Of a stretch of 64,000 nt of DNA, positions 55,424 to 63,763 are shown piece by piece. Each line of letters opens with the position of its first letter. Position 1 is the stretch's first letter. Both the position numbers and the translations under genes were made by a program. The stretch spans positions 1,178,001 to 1,242,000 of the forward strand of contig NZ_VIKR01000002.1 in the NCBI RefSeq assembly GCF_007004765.1, given 5' to 3'. The DNA is from Aliikangiella marina (GTDB taxonomy: Bacteria > Pseudomonadota > Gammaproteobacteria > Enterobacterales > Kangiellaceae). The notes under the pieces were generated by a model. It worked only from the letters and a program-made list of their open reading frames with translations, was not told where the DNA came from and searched no databases.

Positions 55424-56248
55424 TTAACCAGTGACGATTGATGACTTGGTTGCTTGTTTCATTGCTTCAACAAACTCTCCAAGTTTGTTTAATAGAGTCG
55501 CGGGATCGTCCTTGTGTTGTTCGATTATTTTGACAACTGCAGAACCACTTATCGCCCCGTCGGCACCTGACTCTATAGCCTGCTTAACCTGAGCGGGAGA
55601 TGATATACCAAATCCAAGTAAACTCGGCGGAGCGCCAAACCTTTTTAAGGAGTCGATAATCCCTTCAACCGGCATTTCTGCTTGTGTTTCGGTTCCTGTT
55701 ACTCCAGCACGGCTTAGCAGATAGGTGTAGCCGGCACCGAGATGAGCAACTTTTTTTAAAGTTTCCTCTGTAGCATTAGGGGTGGCGATAAATATTGGTT
55801 GAATATTGTTGCTGTTGGCTGCGTTTATAAATCGCTCGCTTTCAAGTGTCGGTACATCTGCAACCAAAATGGAGTCAACACCGGATTCGCTCGCTTGTCG
55901 ATAGAAGTTATCAACAGAGTTGCCAACGACTAAGTTCGAGTAAACTAATAAGCCAATCGGAATTTGTGGATAGTCTTTTCGAATATTGGCGATTAGATTA
56001 AAGCATCGAGCCACAGTGGCTTCGTTTTCCAAAGCTCTTATTGCCGCTGCTTGAATTACCGGCCCGTCAGCGATTGGATCGGAGAAGGGAATGCCGAGTT
56101 CCAGCGCATCTGCGCCGCTGTCAATCAGGGTTGTTATGATTTGATAACATAAATCGAGATTAGGGTCTCCGAGCATCACAAATGGTACGAATGCACCTTC
56201 ATTATTGGATTTCAAATTAGCAAAACATTGTTGGTATCTGTCAGTCAT
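55424..56248 (-). CDS. trpA: Tryptophan synthase alpha chain
   Basis: 274 residues; cleaves indole-3-glycerol phosphate and passes indole to TrpB. Active-site Glu50 ([18 protein letters not shown]) and Asp61 are visible, and [11 protein letters not shown] and [28 protein letters not shown] form the phosphate site. ATG at 56248, 23 bases after trpB. Last gene of the operon. Confidence 0.97.
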
Positions 56249-56271: not shown

Positions 56272-57462
56272 CTAATCAATAGTATCTTCAGGCTTTAGAA
56301 CGCTTCGAACATGAGCCAAGTCTTTGTCGCCGCGTCCCGATAAATTGACGACGATTATTGTTCCATCATCAGCTTTCTCTGCAAGCTTTAATGCGTAGGC
56401 TAACGCATGTGACGACTCCAGCGCTGGAATAATTCCTTCACTCTTTGATAAAGTTTGGAATGCTTCAAGGGCTTCTGTGTCAGTTGCTGATACGTACTCA
56501 ACACGACCGATATTTTTTAAGTGAGCATGTTGAGGGCCTACGGCAGGGTAGTCTAACCCTGCCGATATTGAGTAGGATTCTTCTATCTGACCATCGTCAT
56601 CTTGCATGACATAGGTTTGGGCGCCGTGCAAAATACCAAGTTTTCCTTTTGCCAAGGTCGCACCGTGTTCATGAGTGTCAACACCTTTACCCGCCGGCTC
56701 TACCCCGATTAGCTTTACTGTTTCTTTGTCGAGCAAATCGGCAAAAAGTCCGATGGCGTTCGAGCCACCACCGACGCAAGCAATAGCGTAATCGGGTAAA
56801 CGACCTTCAGCTTCGAGAATCTGCTTGTGAACTTCTTCTCCTATCATTTTCTGAAACTCTCTCACCATTGTTGGAAATGGATGAGGGCCCGCTGCGGTTC
56901 CGAGGAGGTAATGGGAGTTTTTATAAGTAGCAGACCAGTCTCTGAGTGCTTCATTACAGGCATCTTTTAATGTCCCACTTCCTGAAGTCACAGGTATAAC
57001 TTTGGCCCCCATGAGCTCCATCCTAAAAACGTTGGGTTGTTGTCTTTGACAATCCACTTCCCCCATGTAAACGCGGCATTTTAACCCCAGAAGTGAGCAG
57101 GCTATCGCCGTTGCCACACCGTGTTGGCCAGCACCAGTTTCAGCGATTACTTCTGTTTTTCCCATTCGTTTTGCCAACAATGCTTGACCAAGAACTTGGT
57201 TAGTTTTGTGTGCGCCACCGTGAAGAAGGTCCTCTCGTTTTAGATAGATTTTAACTTTATCGTTTGGAGAGAGATTTTTGGTAAGCGTTAGCGGGGTTGG
57301 ACGCCCAGCGTAGTTTTTGAGTAAGTCGGAAAATTCTTTTTTAAAAGACTCATCCGATTGAGATTCGATAAAAGCACCTTCGAGTTGAGTGAGAGCTGGA
57401 ACTAGTAGCTCCGGCACATACATTCCACCAAAGTCCCCAAAATAGCGATTTAACTTTGTCAT
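56272..57462 (-). CDS. trpB: Tryptophan synthase beta chain
   Basis: 396 residues; PLP enzyme joining indole and serine. PLP-Lys86 is in HGGAHKTNQ, with GGGSNAIG phosphate loop, [12 protein letters not shown] and [17 protein letters not shown]. Complete. It begins 11 bases after the trpCF stop. Confidence 0.98.
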
Positions 57463-57473
57463 TAGTTTACCTT

Positions 57474-58856
57474 TTATACTCTTAAATTTTGGAATAATTG
57501 CGCGATCTTTTGTTCGCTCTTTAATCCCGGCTCGTGTTCAACACCCGAACTGAGATCAATCCCAAAAACATTTTTCGATACTGCGTCTACTGCATTATTT
57601 AAATTGATACCACCAGCTAACATTACTTGCGTGCAATCAATCGTTTCAAGTAACTGCCAGTCGAAGGTATGTCCAGACCCGCCATAAGTGCTAGAATCTG
57701 TGTCCAAAAGATATCGGTTTACATCTGGATTTTTGATAAAGCGAATTTCATCAGATATTCGTTCGGCTTTCCAAATTTGAACTTGATTTAATTTCGACTT
57801 TAGTTCGGCAATGTATTCTGCAGTTTCATCGCCATGTAATTGAACTGCGAATAGCGAAAGTGTTTGTGCAATATTCACAATCTTTTCGATAGATTCGTTG
57901 ACAAAAACACCTACGTACTTCAGTGGAGCTGTGGATACTAGTTGTTTAGCCGCGTCCAGCTCGATATAGCGTTTTGATTTTGGATAAAAAACAAGGCCTC
58001 CGAATATACCTCCGTGCTTGTCAACAGCGGTTGCATCTTGAGGCGTTTTCAAACCACAAATTTTAACGTTACCAAACAATAGTGATTTACAATGACTGCG
58101 CATATCAGCTTGGGCCATAATAGATGAACCAATCAAGAAGCCATTGACCAAAGGTGATAAGCGTTTGATATCTTGATAAGTTTCGATACCAGATTCCGAG
58201 ATAAGAATTACATCTTTATCGACTTTACTAACAAGCTTTTCAGTTGTTGCTAAGTCTATCTTTAGTGTTTTTAAATCTCGATTATTAATGCCAATTATCT
58301 TTGCATCCAGTTCAAGCGCTCTGGATAACTCTGATTGATCATGCACTTCGGTTAGCACATCCAGATTTAAAAACTCGGCAACTTGCGCAAGACTGTTGTA
58401 AGTCTCATCATCTAATACGGAAAGCATTAACAAAATTGCATCAGCGCCATAGTGACGAGCTTCGTATACTTGGTAGCAATCGATAAAAAAGTCTTTGCAA
58501 AGAATGGGCTGGTCAACCCGCTTGCTCGCCGTTTTAAGATATTCAAAGTCACCTTGAAAATATCGATTATCAGTTAATACCGATATTGCGCTAGCAAAGT
58601 CTTTGTACTGGTCGAGTATTTCATTAATATTAAAATCGGCGCGAATCAACCCTTTAGAGGGAGATGCTTTTTTACACTCTAAAATAAAGTCAGACGCTTG
58701 ATTGCTAAGCGCTTTTTTAAGGCTGCGTTCACTTGGTTTTATTTCCGCTTTAAAATCTACCAGTGGCTTGCGCTTTTTTCTCAGGTCGACTTCGACGCGT
58801 TTATGATTAACAATTTCTTCGAGCACATTGCGCTTGCTCGCTTCAGGACTAAGCAT
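57474..58856 (-). CDS. trpCF: Indole-3-glycerol-phosphate synthase / phosphoribosylanthranilate isomerase fusion
   Basis: 460 residues, two TIM barrels. Residues up to about 260: IGPS ([63 protein letters not shown]). From about 265: PRAI ([45 protein letters not shown]). The same fusion as E. coli TrpC. It overlaps the end of trpD by 8 bases. Confidence 0.97.
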
Positions 58857-59871
58857 TTACGACCTCCGTTTGGCTAACTTCAGCGAGAGAGAGGAGCGTT
58901 TCAAATGCTTTACCGCTCTCAATAACGGCTTTCGCATCGACAACACCTTGTTTAATTGTCGCACTTTTGCCAACTACATAAAAAAGAGCGCCTGCATTCG
59001 CTGCGACAGTATCGATTATTGCAGGATCCGCTTCACCTTTTAATACGGCTACAAACTGACGCGCATTTTCTTCTGGTTCGCCACCAAATAGTGCATCTAA
59101 AGGAACCGGTTGAAGCCCAAAATCACTTGGCGATAACTCGTACTCGTGAATTTCGCCGTCTTTTAATTCAGCAACAACCGTTGAGCCTGCAAGGGTGATT
59201 TCATCACATCCACAACTATGAACAACCATTGCCGATTTACAACCCGATAATCGAAGAGATTCCGCTGCAGCATAACAGTATTCGGGAGAATAAACTCCCA
59301 TCAACTGAAATTCTGGATTTGCTGGATTAATAAGCGGCCCAAGCAAATTAAAAATAGTACGCGTACCAAGTTGATTTCTAATTGGCATAACATGTTTAAC
59401 GCCCGGGTGATATTGCGGTGCGAACAGAAAGGTTACGCCAACTTCGTCAAGACACTTGCGAGCGATCTCTGGCGCCATATCGATTTTAATCCCAAGTCGT
59501 TCTAACACGTCGGCAGAGCCACACTTACTTGATATAGAACGGTTTCCATGTTTAACCATTTTAATACCATGAGTCGCAGCCAGAAGTGACACTAAGGTTG
59601 AAATATTTAAGGTGTGTTTTCCGCTTCCCCCAGTGCCACAGCTATCGGCAGAGCTATACTCTGGCTTATCGAAGAAATTTGCTTGCGTTCTAAGCGCTTG
59701 CGCGGCTCCAGCTACTTCTTCAGGAGATTCCCCCTTCATTTTCAATGCAATAAGAAACGCAGCAATCGTAATAGGATCTTGTTCGCCTCTAACAAACTCG
59801 CCGAAGATTGATTCTGCATCATCTTTAGTTAAATTCTCTTTTTGGAACAATTGTGCTAGTTGTTGTTTCAT
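58849..59871 (-). CDS. trpD: Anthranilate phosphoribosyltransferase
   Basis: 340 residues. PRPP-binding glycine loop GTGGSGKHTLNISTL, KHGNRSISSKCGSADVLERLG and KHVMPIRNQLGTRTIFNLLGPLINP are all present. Here TrpD is separate from TrpG, unlike E. coli. Overlaps trpCF by 8 bases and begins 43 bases after trpG. Confidence 0.97.
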   Translation of the reverse strand: MKQQLAQLFQKENLTKDDAESIFGEFVRGEQDPITIAAFLIALKMKGESPEEVAGAAQALRTQANFFDKPEYSSADSCGTGGSGKHTLNISTLVSLLAATHGIKMVKHGNRSISSKCGSADVLERLGIKIDMAPEIARKCLDEVGVTFLFAPQYHPGVKHVMPIRNQLGTRTIFNLLGPLINPANPEFQLMGVYSPEYCYAAAESLRLSGCKSAMVVHSCGCDEITLAGSTVVAELKDGEIHEYELSPSDFGLQPVPLDALFGGEPEENARQFVAVLKGEADPAIIDTVAANAGALFYVVGKSATIKQGVVDAKAVIESGKAFETLLSLAEVSQTEVVNA

Positions 59872-59914: not shown

Positions 59915-60547
59915 TTATTTTGTCGTCGTTTCATCGCTCAGTAACCACTGAATAGAGGACTGTAATAAGTGACTGCCCTGAGTGGTTAAAATAGATTCTG
60001 GATGAAATTGAAAACCTAAAACCTTTTTTTCGCGATCCGCGACAGCCATGACTTCTTTTTCTCGGTCGCTTGTGGTTGCGATGACCGCCAAATCATCGGG
60101 AGTGACCTCTGCGACCAATGAGTGATATCGAGCAGCTTGAAAATATTTTGGCAAGTGTTCGAAAATCGTTGCTGCAAGGTGATCGGTGTCATCATAAATA
60201 ATCTGGTCAGCCTTCCCATGCACAATACTTTTTGCTTGACCAATTTTTCCGCCATATTGCTGTACAATGGATTGATGACCCAAACAAATGCCTAGAATGG
60301 GTAGTTGGCCGGCATACGCTTTGATCACTTGAAGAGAAATACCCGCAGAATCTGGATTACCTGGCCCAGGAGAAATCACAATGATGGTTTGTTTATCTGC
60401 TAACCGGCTCTCAGTAAAAATTGATTCAATCGGTGTGTCATTTCTAAAAACAACAACCTCAGCGTCGAGCATTCGAAATTGGTTTACGAGGTTATAAGTA
60501 AACGAATCGAAGTTGTCGATCATAATTATTTGTAAGGGTAAACTCAT
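59915..60547 (-). CDS. trpG: Anthranilate synthase glutaminase component
   Basis: 210 residues, class I glutamine amidotransferase: ISPGPGNP, nucleophile Cys88 in LGICLGHQSIVQQYGG, His in FQFHPESILT. Its ATG overlaps the trpE stop by one base (TAATG), indicating translational coupling with the partner subunit. Confidence 0.97.
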   Translation of the reverse strand: MSLPLQIIMIDNFDSFTYNLVNQFRMLDAEVVVFRNDTPIESIFTESRLADKQTIIVISPGPGNPDSAGISLQVIKAYAGQLPILGICLGHQSIVQQYGGKIGQAKSIVHGKADQIIYDDTDHLAATIFEHLPKYFQAARYHSLVAEVTPDDLAVIATTSDREKEVMAVADREKKVLGFQFHPESILTTQGSHLLQSSIQWLLSDETTTK

Positions 60548-62289
60548 TAGCTGTTCCCCTCGGTTTGAGTCTTTTTTATAACTATATTTGATCCCGTTTG
60601 CTGGCAGATCCGATTGGCGTTTTTGATCGCATTGATGACCGCTAAAGCTTTATTTTCTGTCTCTTTGGCTTCCATGAGTGGGTCAGAATCGAAAACTACT
60701 CCCGCACCAGCTTGAACATAGGCAAGGTTATCTCGGCAGAACGCTGAGCGAATAACAATGCAAGTATCCATGTCGCCTTGACCATTCAAATATCCGACCG
60801 CACCGCCATAACTGCCTCTGCGTTTTTGTTCTGAACGTCGAATTAATTCTGAAGCCTTGATTTTGGGCGCACCAGTTAATGTTCCCATATTCATGCATGC
60901 CTGATAAGCATGTAAAGCATCAAATTCGGGGTTAAGTAATCCCTTAACGCACGATACGAGGTGCATAACTTGCGAGTATCGATCAACGGCTAAAAGACGC
61001 GGAACATGTGTTGTCCCTGGACGACTTATTCGCGCAATGTCATTTCGTGCGAGATCGACCAGCATCATATGTTCAGCAAGCTCTTTTTGATCGAGTTTAA
61101 GCTCTGCTTCAATTCTTGCATCAAGATCTAAGTCGATTTCGCCGCGACTGTTTTTGCCGCGAGGGCGAGTACCAGCGATCGGGTAGAGCAGTACTTCATT
61201 AGACTGGCTATCATATTTCAGCGCGCTCTCCGGTGAAGCGCCGAATAACACGAAAGCTTGGTCTTGCATATAAAATAAATAAGGACTCGGATTAGCGGAC
61301 TTGAGTTGGCGGTATGCTTCTATAGTTGATTGACAGTTGAGCGAATAAGTTCGAGAGGGCACTACTTGAAAAATATCCCCTTGGACGATGTTTGCTTTCA
61401 ACTTTTCAACTAATTGAGCAAACTGCTGATCATCAAGATTAACCGTTACTTGCTCGTTTTGGGAATCGTTGTCGGAATCATCATTTTTATTGCCTGATAA
61501 CGTTAAGCGATTTTTATCATCGGATTGAATACCGACAATCTGGTTATTTTCTTCTGCTCCTAATTGATTTATTTTAAGCTCAAACTCAGCAAATTTTCGG
61601 GATAAATCAAAATAGGTTTTATCCTGTTCCTCTCCAGAGAAGTGATTGCCAATCAATCGCTTTGAGTTGTTCTGATGATCAATAATCAATAAGGTTTCGG
61701 CTAGATAGAAGACAAAGTCTGGACAGCTATTTTGACCGTCTGTCACTTCTGGAAGCTGCTCAAATGTCGCGATAAAATCAAAAGCAAAAACACCACACAA
61801 GAATAATGAAAACTCATTAGCGGTATTAGCGACAAAAGCGCTTTTGATTAATCTCAGAATATTGATCGGTGAGGCGCTTTTTAGACGTGAATCTTCATCG
61901 AGATTCGGTTGTTGTTGCGCAATTTGAATTGTCAGCTTAGGGAGACCTTTGGGATCCCCCTGAGCTAAAACTGACTCCTGGACTTGTTCGTCATAGTTCA
62001 CCATTTGTGCAATATGTTTCAACGCATTTGAACCATTTTCTGATAGCGACTGCAGGACGACTTGTCGCCCATTACATTCGATTCGAAGTGCTGCAGCCAG
62101 CATCAAAATACTTTTTACATTCTCTTTAGACTCTATTTCACTCGACTCCAAAAGCATCCGGTTTTGGGTCGTTGTATCTTGCAAGCTGAGCCTGCGAAAA
62201 ATTTCCACAGGCTCGAGCAAGGAGTCGACTCCTTTAACAATGGTCTTGATTTGACCAAAGTTTGCTTGGTTCACGTTGATCGATGACAT
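60547..62289 (-). CDS. trpE: Anthranilate synthase component I
   Basis: 580 residues, longer than E. coli TrpE (520). N-terminal Trp-binding motif LLESSEIESKEN at residues 46-57 is the feedback-inhibition site, so inhibition by Trp should work. The catalytic C-terminal chorismate domain is present (GDIFQVVPSRTYSL, PYLFYMQDQAFVLFGASPES, PIAGTRPRGK, RSQVMHLVS-like, GTLTGAPKIKA, YGGAVGYLNGQGDMDTCIVIRSA, QAGAGVVFDSDP). Between them, about residues 245-285, lies an Asp/Asn/Gln-rich low-complexity insert (KNDDSDNDSQNEQ). Its ATG overlaps the stop of the DAHP synthase gene by one base. Confidence 0.97.
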   Translation of the reverse strand: MSSINVNQANFGQIKTIVKGVDSLLEPVEIFRRLSLQDTTTQNRMLLESSEIESKENVKSILMLAAALRIECNGRQVVLQSLSENGSNALKHIAQMVNYDEQVQESVLAQGDPKGLPKLTIQIAQQQPNLDEDSRLKSASPINILRLIKSAFVANTANEFSLFLCGVFAFDFIATFEQLPEVTDGQNSCPDFVFYLAETLLIIDHQNNSKRLIGNHFSGEEQDKTYFDLSRKFAEFELKINQLGAEENNQIVGIQSDDKNRLTLSGNKNDDSDNDSQNEQVTVNLDDQQFAQLVEKLKANIVQGDIFQVVPSRTYSLNCQSTIEAYRQLKSANPSPYLFYMQDQAFVLFGASPESALKYDSQSNEVLLYPIAGTRPRGKNSRGEIDLDLDARIEAELKLDQKELAEHMMLVDLARNDIARISRPGTTHVPRLLAVDRYSQVMHLVSCVKGLLNPEFDALHAYQACMNMGTLTGAPKIKASELIRRSEQKRRGSYGGAVGYLNGQGDMDTCIVIRSAFCRDNLAYVQAGAGVVFDSDPLMEAKETENKALAVINAIKNANRICQQTGSNIVIKKTQTEGNS

Positions 62290-63305
62290 TATGCAACAAC
62301 CTTACCTGCAGCTTGAATAAATGGCTTGATTTCATTCATCAGTTTTGCAAAATGAGCCTCATCGAGCGATTGCGCGCCGTCAGATAAAGCGACTTGTGGG
62401 TTGTAGTGGGCTTCGACGATCACTCCGTCGGCACCGCAAGCGACAGCTGCTTTTGCCATAGGGCCGACAAGCTCCCTAATACCAGTACCGTGTGAAGGGT
62501 CAACAATAACAGGAAGATGGCTCTTGGTTTTGATGTAGGCGACTGCATTCAAGTCGAGAGTATTGCGAGTCGCTTTTTCAAATGTACGGATCCCTCGCTC
62601 ACAAATGATGACGTTTTGGTTGCCTTCGTTATAAATATACTCAGCAGCTAAAAGTAATTCTTCAATGGTCGCAGACATTCCGCGTTTTAAAATAGCGGGT
62701 TTGTGAGACTGACCGACTGCTTTAAGCAATTTGAAGTTTTGCATGTTTCGGGCACCAATTTGAAAAGCATCAACATATTGTTCGAGCATTTCCACGTGGG
62801 CCGGATCGATTATTTCTGTTACGCACGGAAGGCCATATTCTTTTGAGGCTTCTTGAAGCAGCTGCAAACCTTCTTCCTCTAATCCTTGAAAACTATATGG
62901 TGAGGTCCTGGGTTTAAAAGCGCCACCGCGAAGGCCTACTGCACCGTATTTTTTAACGAGTTCGGCCGATTTGAAAATTTGCTCTCGGTTTTCGACCGCA
63001 CAAGGGCCTGCGATTATGGCAAAGGAGCCACCGCCGATCGTCACATCGCCAAACTGCACCTGAGTGTCGTGACTTTGCAGTTCGCGGCTGACCTGTTTGT
63101 AAGTACTTAAGATAGGTTTAACATTTTCTACCATAGGATGGGCGCCGATATTGAGGTTATTGAGGATCCTTTCGTCGCCTAATGCCCCAAGGACAATTCT
63201 TTCGGTTCCAGGCATGTACAGTGGTTTCAAATTGACAGATTCAATCTGCGCGAGTATTTCCTTGGCTTCAACTTCTGTTGCTTCTGGCTTTAATACGATA
63301 ATCAT
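62289..63305 (-). CDS. aroF: DAHP synthase, type I-beta (AroF/TM0343 class)
   Basis: 338 residues; condenses PEP and erythrose-4-phosphate, the first step of aromatic synthesis. An N-terminal ferredoxin-like regulatory domain (MIIVLKPEATEVEAKEILAQI) is followed by the barrel: IIAGPCAVENREQI (Cys102), LRGGAFKPRTSPYSFQG, CERGIRTFEKATRN and VDPSHGTGIREL. This is the beta subclass, not the E. coli AroFGH type. Being the first gene of the Trp operon puts pathway entry under Trp control by attenuation; the N-terminal domain of relatives mediates feedback. Confidence 0.93.
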   Translation of the reverse strand: MIIVLKPEATEVEAKEILAQIESVNLKPLYMPGTERIVLGALGDERILNNLNIGAHPMVENVKPILSTYKQVSRELQSHDTQVQFGDVTIGGGSFAIIAGPCAVENREQIFKSAELVKKYGAVGLRGGAFKPRTSPYSFQGLEEEGLQLLQEASKEYGLPCVTEIIDPAHVEMLEQYVDAFQIGARNMQNFKLLKAVGQSHKPAILKRGMSATIEELLLAAEYIYNEGNQNVIICERGIRTFEKATRNTLDLNAVAYIKTKSHLPVIVDPSHGTGIRELVGPMAKAAVACGADGVIVEAHYNPQVALSDGAQSLDEAHFAKLMNEIKPFIQAAGKVVA

Positions 63306-63378
63306 TGGTTTATCCTCTAAGTTAATAATATCTTCAATCTGTAATTAAAAAATTCGGTTTCTTTCCGTCAAATTAAGC

Positions 63379-63408
63379 AAAAAAAAACCCGCTTGAAGGA
63401 GCGGGTTT
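63379..63408 (-). terminator. Attenuator terminator 2 (before aroF)
   Basis: On the minus strand AAACCCGCT pairs perfectly with AGCGGGTTT (9 bp, plus-strand 400-408 with 385-393 of 63xxx), loop CCTTCA, followed by a T-run. It lies between trpL2 and aroF. The upstream half of the stem can instead pair with 63441-63448: GAGTGGGT with ACCCGCTC (63399-63406), one G-U, forming the antiterminator. CACTCA (63457-63462) pairs with TGAGTG (63444-63449) as the pause hairpin. Confidence 0.92.
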
Positions 63409-63438
63409 CAAAAAGTCGTCTTTTTTAGACAGCATCGG

Positions 63439-63504
63439 TTACCCACTCAAAGTATCTGAGTGCCACCACCATGCTGTATGAATATTGTTGTGTCTGTTAA
63501 TCAT
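63439..63504 (-). CDS. trpL: Trp leader peptide 2 (three adjacent Trp codons)
   Basis: 21-residue ORF, ATG at 63504, TAA at 63439-63441. Sequence MINRHNNIHTAWWWHSDTLSG in two parts: MINRHNNIHTA then WWWHSDTLSG. Three consecutive TGG codons sit just ahead of the pause hairpin, the layout of a Trp attenuator. No strong ribosome binding site is visible upstream; a weak promoter of its own (63505-63585) cannot be excluded. Confidence 0.88.
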   Translation of the reverse strand: MINRHNNIHTAWWWHSDTLSG

Positions 63505-63585
63505 GATTTTAATCGTCTATTTATTTAATTTCGCTATTTCTAGAACAAGATTAATTATTCGTTGTTTAAAGCGGCAATTCGGACA

Positions 63586-63619
63586 TAAAAAAACCCGTTA
63601 GATTGCTCAAACGGGTTTT
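63586..63619 (-). terminator. Attenuator terminator 1
   Basis: On the minus strand AACCCGTT (63610-63617) pairs with AACGGGTT (63592-63599), extendable by A-T pairs, followed by a run of seven T. It lies after trpL1 and 82 bases before trpL2. The antiterminator GGGTTTTC (63649-63656) pairs perfectly with GAAAACCC (63613-63620), and the pause hairpin is ACTCTCT (63678-63684) with AGAGGGT (63653-63659). Confidence 0.92.
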
Positions 63620-63657
63620 CAAATTCTTTACAAATCGCGTATACGCCAGAAAACCCT

Positions 63658-63720
63658 CTAGTTTTGCCAGTGCCACCAGAGAGTAGAAATGTTGTGTGCG
63701 TGTACATTTATTGTTTTCAT
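63658..63720 (-). CDS. trpL: Trp leader peptide 1 (Trp-Trp-His-Trp)
   Basis: 20-residue ORF, ATG at 63720, TAG at 63658-63660, ending LWWHWQN. Three Trp codons in four positions lie in the pause-hairpin arm. The stop codon falls directly in the antiterminator arm, as expected. The ribosome binding site is weak. It is contained in a longer chance ORF in another frame (63566-63763), which I reject. Confidence 0.9.
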   Translation of the reverse strand: MKTINVHAHNISTLWWHWQN

Positions 63721-63733
63721 GGGGCAAAGGTAT

Positions 63734-63763
63734 CTTATAAGTCTCGGCACTGTCAAGCGTCAA
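63734..63763 (-). promoter_or_regulatory. Probable sigma70 promoter of the trp operon
   Basis: -35 TTGACG (63758-63763), 17-18 base spacer, -10 TTATAA/TATAAG (63734-63740). The predicted start is near 63727, which would leave only about 6 bases before the trpL1 ATG; a start further upstream is possible. No TrpR operator is recognised. Confidence 0.65.

Follow-up and report, generated by a model that had tools for sequence, protein, structure and literature searches.

Two predicted tryptophan attenuators in series upstream of the aroF-trp operon in Kangiellaceae without a detectable TrpR

Introduction

Operons for tryptophan and other biosynthetic pathways are equipped, in the textbook cases, with one attenuator gate per operon. 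In trpL of Escherichia coli (Rfam RF00513), which lies upstream of the trp operon, a leader peptide with a run of Trp residues is combined with a 1:2 pause hairpin, a 2:3 antiterminator, and a 3:4 terminator with a T-run. T-box riboswitches bind uncharged tRNA directly, with no involvement of a leader peptide or a ribosome. They are found as tandem or triple elements in Gram-positive trp operons, where they constitute serial Trp-tRNA sensors in front of the trp genes (PMC12452182). In E. coli, TrpR provides approximately 70-fold and attenuation approximately 10-fold control of trp (PMC1183508), and the trp response becomes graded when TrpR is absent (PMC13178558). The trp operon of Sinorhizobium meliloti is controlled by attenuation without transcriptional repression; its trpL has a leaderless leader ORF, and attenuation releases the trans-acting products rnTrpL and peTrpL (PMC7298713). 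The leader of Salmonella mgtCBR contains two short ORFs and two attenuators and was presented by its authors as a singular example, with one attenuator being the norm for biosynthetic genes (PMC3641672).

We describe here a locus of Aliikangiella marina, contained in a stretch of 64,000 nucleotides that was analysed as a whole (hereafter the window), at which two such units are predicted in succession. Each unit resembles E. coli trpL in the arrangement of leader peptide, pause hairpin, antiterminator and terminator, whereas the locus differs from E. coli trpL in that two units are arranged in series, aroF is the first gene, the genome lacks TrpR, and both units score below the Rfam gathering threshold. 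The combination of two ORFs with two attenuators is shared with mgtCBR, but mgtCBR senses ATP and proline, whereas both gates of the present locus would respond to one and the same tRNA, and the genes they control are biosynthetic. Tandem T-boxes are a functional analogue, although the leaders described here would use a leader peptide and a ribosome. The S. meliloti system is similar in its reliance on attenuation but has a single attenuator, with peptide and RNA acting in trans. A search of the open-access literature for tandem ribosome-mediated amino-acid attenuators returned only mgtCBR, tandem T-boxes or riboswitches and, for some rimP leaders, a tandem terminator. We know of no published report of a serial attenuator pair that senses the same tRNA, as judged from that literature. 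To our knowledge, therefore, the single unit is a classical trpL attenuator and the serial pair is apparently undescribed.

Results

The two predicted attenuators occupy positions 63379-63763 on the minus strand, 5' of aroF-trpE-G-D-CF-B-A, and all features given below are on this strand. The first leader ORF, trpL1 (MKTINVHAHNISTLWWHWQN, 63658..63720), has Trp at codons 15, 16 and 18, and these codons overlap a pause-type hairpin (segments 1:2, 63654..63683) in the MFE fold of the leader. The 5' arm of antiterminator 1 (GGGTTTTC, segment 2, 63649..63656) can pair with GAAAACCC (segment 3, 63613-63620) through 8 bp, all Watson-Crick, and intrinsic terminator 1 (63587..63620) is predicted from an 11-bp perfect stem (63620-63589) with a T-run to 63587. 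The second ORF, trpL2 (MINRHNNIHTAWWWHSDTLSG, 63439..63504), has Trp at codons 12-14 and is accompanied in the MFE fold by a pause-type hairpin (segments 1:2, 63444..63462). Its antiterminator pairs GAGTGGGT (segment 2, 63441..63448) with ACCCGCTC (segment 3, 63399-63406) through 8 bp, one of them G-U, and intrinsic terminator 2 (63379..63409) has a 10-bp stem (63409-63384) and a T-run to 63379. Both ORFs have positional counterparts in relatives; those of trpL1 in other tandem Kangiellaceae also carry Trp runs. In each leader, Trp codons are thus clustered within a short ORF ahead of the trp genes, and a 3:4 intrinsic terminator lies between this ORF and aroF.

We compared the 458-nt leader region (63306-63763) with 3000 dinucleotide-preserving shuffles of itself. 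None of the shuffles contained an ATG-initiated ORF, 8-35 codons long, with three or more Trp within four codons, none contained two terminators, and none contained even a single leader-terminator unit. The first-pass annotation had proposed two complete Trp attenuators in series, with antiterminators of 8 bp each and a single G-U in one of them; the ORFs, hairpins, antiterminators and terminators were all found as it described them, beyond what chance produced. In a comparison with the Rfam Trp_leader model (RF00513; gathering score of 41), leader 2 scored 32.8 bits (E value of 8.9e-5) and leader 1 scored 20.3 bits, and no match was obtained for either leader at the gathering threshold. Both leaders are predicted to work like Trp_leader, yet are not members at the Rfam level by score.

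The first gene of the operon, aroF (62289..63305), encodes a DAHP synthase that belongs to the PRK08673 subfamily (NCBIfam NF006421; score of 483.5 bits, cut-off of 335). It is followed by trpE (60547..62289; NF010079 and TIGR00565), trpG (59915..60547; TIGR00566), trpD (58849..59871; TIGR01245), a trpC-trpF fusion (57474..58856; NF006945), trpB (56272..57462; TIGR00263) and trpA (55424..56248; TIGR00262), all over the respective cut-offs. Given that the window genome (G000) encodes two more DAHP synthases, one of class I and one of class II, control of the operon's aroF by Trp does not have to leave the Phe and Tyr branches starved.

Competing RNA structures, whose prediction had been proposed in the first-pass annotation, were modelled by folding the RNA that is left free by a ribosome at set positions; for the stalled state, the final arm of the terminator was taken as not yet transcribed. 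When the A site held the first Trp codon, the 2:3 antiterminator formed in leader 1 (-13.0 kcal/mol) and leader 2 (-16.1 kcal/mol). When it held the stop codon instead, the pairing was lost (-0.9 and -1.8 kcal/mol, respectively) and the terminator formed once complete in both leaders, so that a stall on the Trp codons freed the antiterminator and the stop-codon position did not. The helix score was better than that of shuffles for antiterminator 1 (p = 0.027) and antiterminator 2 (p = 0.003). The full-length MFE fold favoured the terminator in every case. The same is true of classical attenuators, in which the order of folding decides the outcome, as it presumably does here. The pattern extended to 40 tandem loci, those in which both units were scored automatically: the 2:3 antiterminator was better than in shuffles (p < 0.05) in 34 of the 40 first units and 29 of the 40 second units. 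Segment 3 was sequestered by upstream RNA (at least 5 bases) in the stalled state in 40/40 first and 36/40 second units, compared with 14/40 and 5/40, respectively, in the stop-codon state. In the window and these 40 loci, folding thus indicated that the 2:3 antiterminator is free only with a ribosome stalled on the Trp codons.

A stricter sigma-70 scan missed the main promoter as well as terminator 1, and direct scoring was used instead. A predicted sigma-70 promoter for the whole leader and operon (63734..63763) consists of a -35 element TTGACG (63763-63758), an 18-nt spacer and a -10 element TATAAG (63739-63734); its consensus score is 10.5 (z = 1.9), and transcription is predicted to start approximately 6-7 nt before the ATG of trpL1. 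An element of the form TTGAC[A/C/G]-N16-18-TA... is located 5' of leader 1 in most relatives, and promoter-like scores of the regions upstream of leader 1 had a mean z of +1.5. The two leaders could instead belong to independent transcription units, with leader 2 having its own promoter and each attenuator gating a different transcript, so that no series effect would arise. The gap between the leaders in the window (85 nt, AT-rich) is among the longest of the set and contains a weak promoter-like site, GCGAAA-TAAAAT, but the score of this site (9.5) equals that of shuffles (z = 0.1). In relatives, the ATG of trpL2 follows terminator 1 at a median distance of 52 nt (range of 22-104), often at only 22-50 nt, and inter-leader gaps scored below shuffles (mean z of -0.8). 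For a promoter dedicated to leader 2, which the first-pass annotation had set against its own proposal, no signal was thus obtained: none of the 36 gaps lay more than 2 SD above shuffles, as against 13 of the 40 regions upstream of leader 1. We consider independent units very improbable. The TTGAC-type promoter before leader 1, together with the lack of promoter signal between the leaders, suggests instead that a single transcript should pass both terminators.

Leader 1 has no Shine-Dalgarno sequence. The -10 box ends 13 nt before its ATG in the window and only 6-8 nt before it in many relatives, and leader 1 is therefore probably leaderless or nearly so. Leader 2 shows no clear Shine-Dalgarno sequence in the window, and in relatives the signal is weak on average (mean of -2.4 kcal/mol, compared with -1.7 kcal/mol for shuffles). 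Translation of trpL2 is a prediction, and it is here that the model is weakest. The nearly leaderless state predicted for leader 1, with its short -10 to ATG distance in many relatives, recalls rnTrpL of S. meliloti (PMC7298713) and raises the possibility that attenuation releases small RNAs or peptides from the leaders and that action in trans is an additional or even the main role of the leaders, in which case there would be two products and no steeper gate. A trans-acting peptide would need a conserved sequence, whereas the peptide sequence outside the Trp codons is not conserved between genera, and we regard such action as exceedingly unlikely. The NH2-termini of the leader peptides drift between genomes while the Trp codons are kept, indicating that the codons rather than the peptides are under selection.

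We examined the region upstream of aroF in the 38 Kangiellaceae genomes that encode this gene, 36 of which were scorable in that they had enough upstream sequence. A pair of Trp leaders with a terminator after each one was present in 32 of the 36; in two of these 32 loci (L012 and L020), the second leader contains just one Trp codon. Three genomes (G002, G021 and G024), all lacking TrpR, contain a single intact leader. In G015 (locus L041), also without TrpR, the sole Trp leader is interrupted by an in-frame stop that precedes its Trp codons, and aroF is split into two pieces; the occurrence of both defects in one assembly suggests that they may reflect an assembly error, or else decay. These four single-leader loci without TrpR indicate that two gates are not obligatory. 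Outside Kangiellaceae, two leaders with terminators were found in at least three families of the same order: f4 (1 genome), f14 (3) and f15 (5). Family f13 (1 genome) is probably also tandem with terminators, its second ORF reading through its hairpin, and families f7, f11, f12 and f25 have a second Trp leader without a terminator. The second leader is thus conserved well beyond the window, contrary to the loss in relatives that had been named beforehand as evidence against the proposal.

This distribution also bears on whether only one unit is active, the other being a decaying relic of a duplication whose terminator is a minor leak. In a few relatives, the second leader does contain just one Trp codon (L012 and L020), or there is only one leader (L007, L008 and L010). 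Both units are complete in the window, however, and both retain Trp runs, antiterminators and terminators across genera even though their surroundings have diverged, which makes a single active unit most unlikely.

The first-pass annotation had taken strings shared by the leaders, ACACAACA and TGGTGGCACT, as a sign of duplication. This evidence proved weak: the need to encode Trp-Trp-His largely dictates TGGTGGCAC, and on average leader 1 is closer to the first leaders of other genera (mean z of 5.2) than to leader 2 of its own genome (3.4). A recent duplication in the window was rejected on this comparison. Leader 2 resembles other second leaders (3.3) no more than it resembles leader 1 within a genome. 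Given that leader 1 is more alike across genera than the two leaders are within a genome, the tandem is old in Kangiellaceae and, as far as sequence likeness indicates, ancestral there, and a recent duplication is not needed. It had further been suggested that the order of the leaders sets two thresholds. The mean number of Trp codons is 2.9 in leader 1 and 3.35 in leader 2, with Trp runs varying freely between positions, and with no consistent difference in Trp number such thresholds do not appear to be a conserved design.

A search for TrpR (PF01371) gave no hit in the window genome, which therefore does not show E. coli-type regulation by TrpR and an attenuator. No hit exceeded the cut-off in the 38 Kangiellaceae genomes or in any other tandem genome searched, and the E. 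coli control was positive. Among TrpR-positive genomes of the same order with a leader, all eight sampled (G037, G041, G045, G053, G056, G431, G746 and G761) have a single one. The cleanest contrast is provided by genus g302 (family f6), which combines an upstream aroF of the same type with TrpR and a single leader. When counted by family, a second Trp leader of any kind was found in 0/5 TrpR-positive and 9/13 TrpR-negative families (Fisher p = 0.03), and a terminator-bearing second leader in 0/5 and 5/13, respectively (p = 0.25); because families share ancestry and are not phylogenetically independent, this correlation is suggestive only.

Discussion

The sequence contains both complete units, conserved among relatives, with no promoter signals between them and no TrpR gene in the genome. 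We consider it highly probable that two ribosome-mediated Trp attenuators operate in series on one transcript, from a promoter before trpL1, upstream of aroF-trpEGD(CF)BA. We infer that both ORFs are translated, that termination occurs at both sites, and that one spanning transcript has its read-through multiplied. According to this proposal, a single promoter before trpL1 would drive transcription through both attenuators ahead of the operon. When charged tRNA-Trp is plentiful, the ribosome would reach the stop codon and cover segment 2, the 3:4 terminator would form, and RNA polymerase would stop; when it is scarce, the ribosome would stall on the Trp codons, segment 2 would pair with segment 3, and the polymerase would read on. 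Given that both gates would sense one signal and share one transcript, their read-through probabilities should multiply, with a lower basal leak, a wider range and a steeper response than with one attenuator. In a toy model with 10% basal read-through per gate, two gates gave an approximately 100-fold range compared with 10-fold for one, and twice the slope. The steeper response follows arithmetically from multiplication in this model, and the multi-step advantage of attenuation needs ribosome and polymerase to be synchronised at each leader.

The best reading of these data is that two serial ribosome-mediated attenuators do the job performed in E. coli by TrpR and one attenuator, and they are likely to be the main transcriptional control of the operon in this TrpR-less lineage. 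For a broader proposal, we see the case for and against as evenly balanced: that TrpR-less lineages in the GTDB order containing Kangiellaceae run the trp operon by two serial Trp-codon leaders in place of TrpR and one attenuator, with a terminator-type pair in Kangiellaceae and at least three further families and, in four more families, a terminator-less second leader just before the first gene that probably acts on translation or by peptide-dependent stalling.

A conserved double gate on one tRNA would make it possible to ask, in a natural system, how range and steepness depend on the number of attenuators, and whether attenuation can substitute for a repressor on its own. The predictions are that the basal leak is squared, that the response is steeper, and that loss of one gate gives an intermediate phenotype. 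The one-leader relatives G002, G021 and G024, and genus g302 with TrpR and one leader, offer ready comparisons.

Several other features were observed at these loci. In family f7 (L182-L190; for example, the upstream regions in L139, L140 and L157), a Trp-rich leader ORF without a terminator is located approximately 30-40 nt before aroF or trpE. Its peptide, K[VA]K[ST]WF[IM]WWL[QL]P[IL]YAG-stop, is conserved over seven genera, and the counts of variable sites by codon position (6, 8 and 14) suggest that the peptide itself is selected; this leader may be a nascent-peptide stalling leader or a translational attenuator. In L137, L138, L160, L163 and L164 (families f25, f12 and f11), a second leader of the WRW type without a terminator lies directly before aroF or trpE, 3' of a first attenuator of the normal kind; these genomes have no TrpR. 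In L006, L007 and L008, a repeat starting with CCAGGGATGGACTGTATG directly follows the attenuator terminator and displaces aroF, with several copies in tandem in L006. Finally, in L040 (G058, family f23), a single Phe/Tyr/Trp-rich leader, MNLSHQYFYFFGWFCSHSGREGMVCG, followed by an antiterminator and a terminator, is located 150 to 69 nt before aroF and is perhaps a general aromatic sensor.
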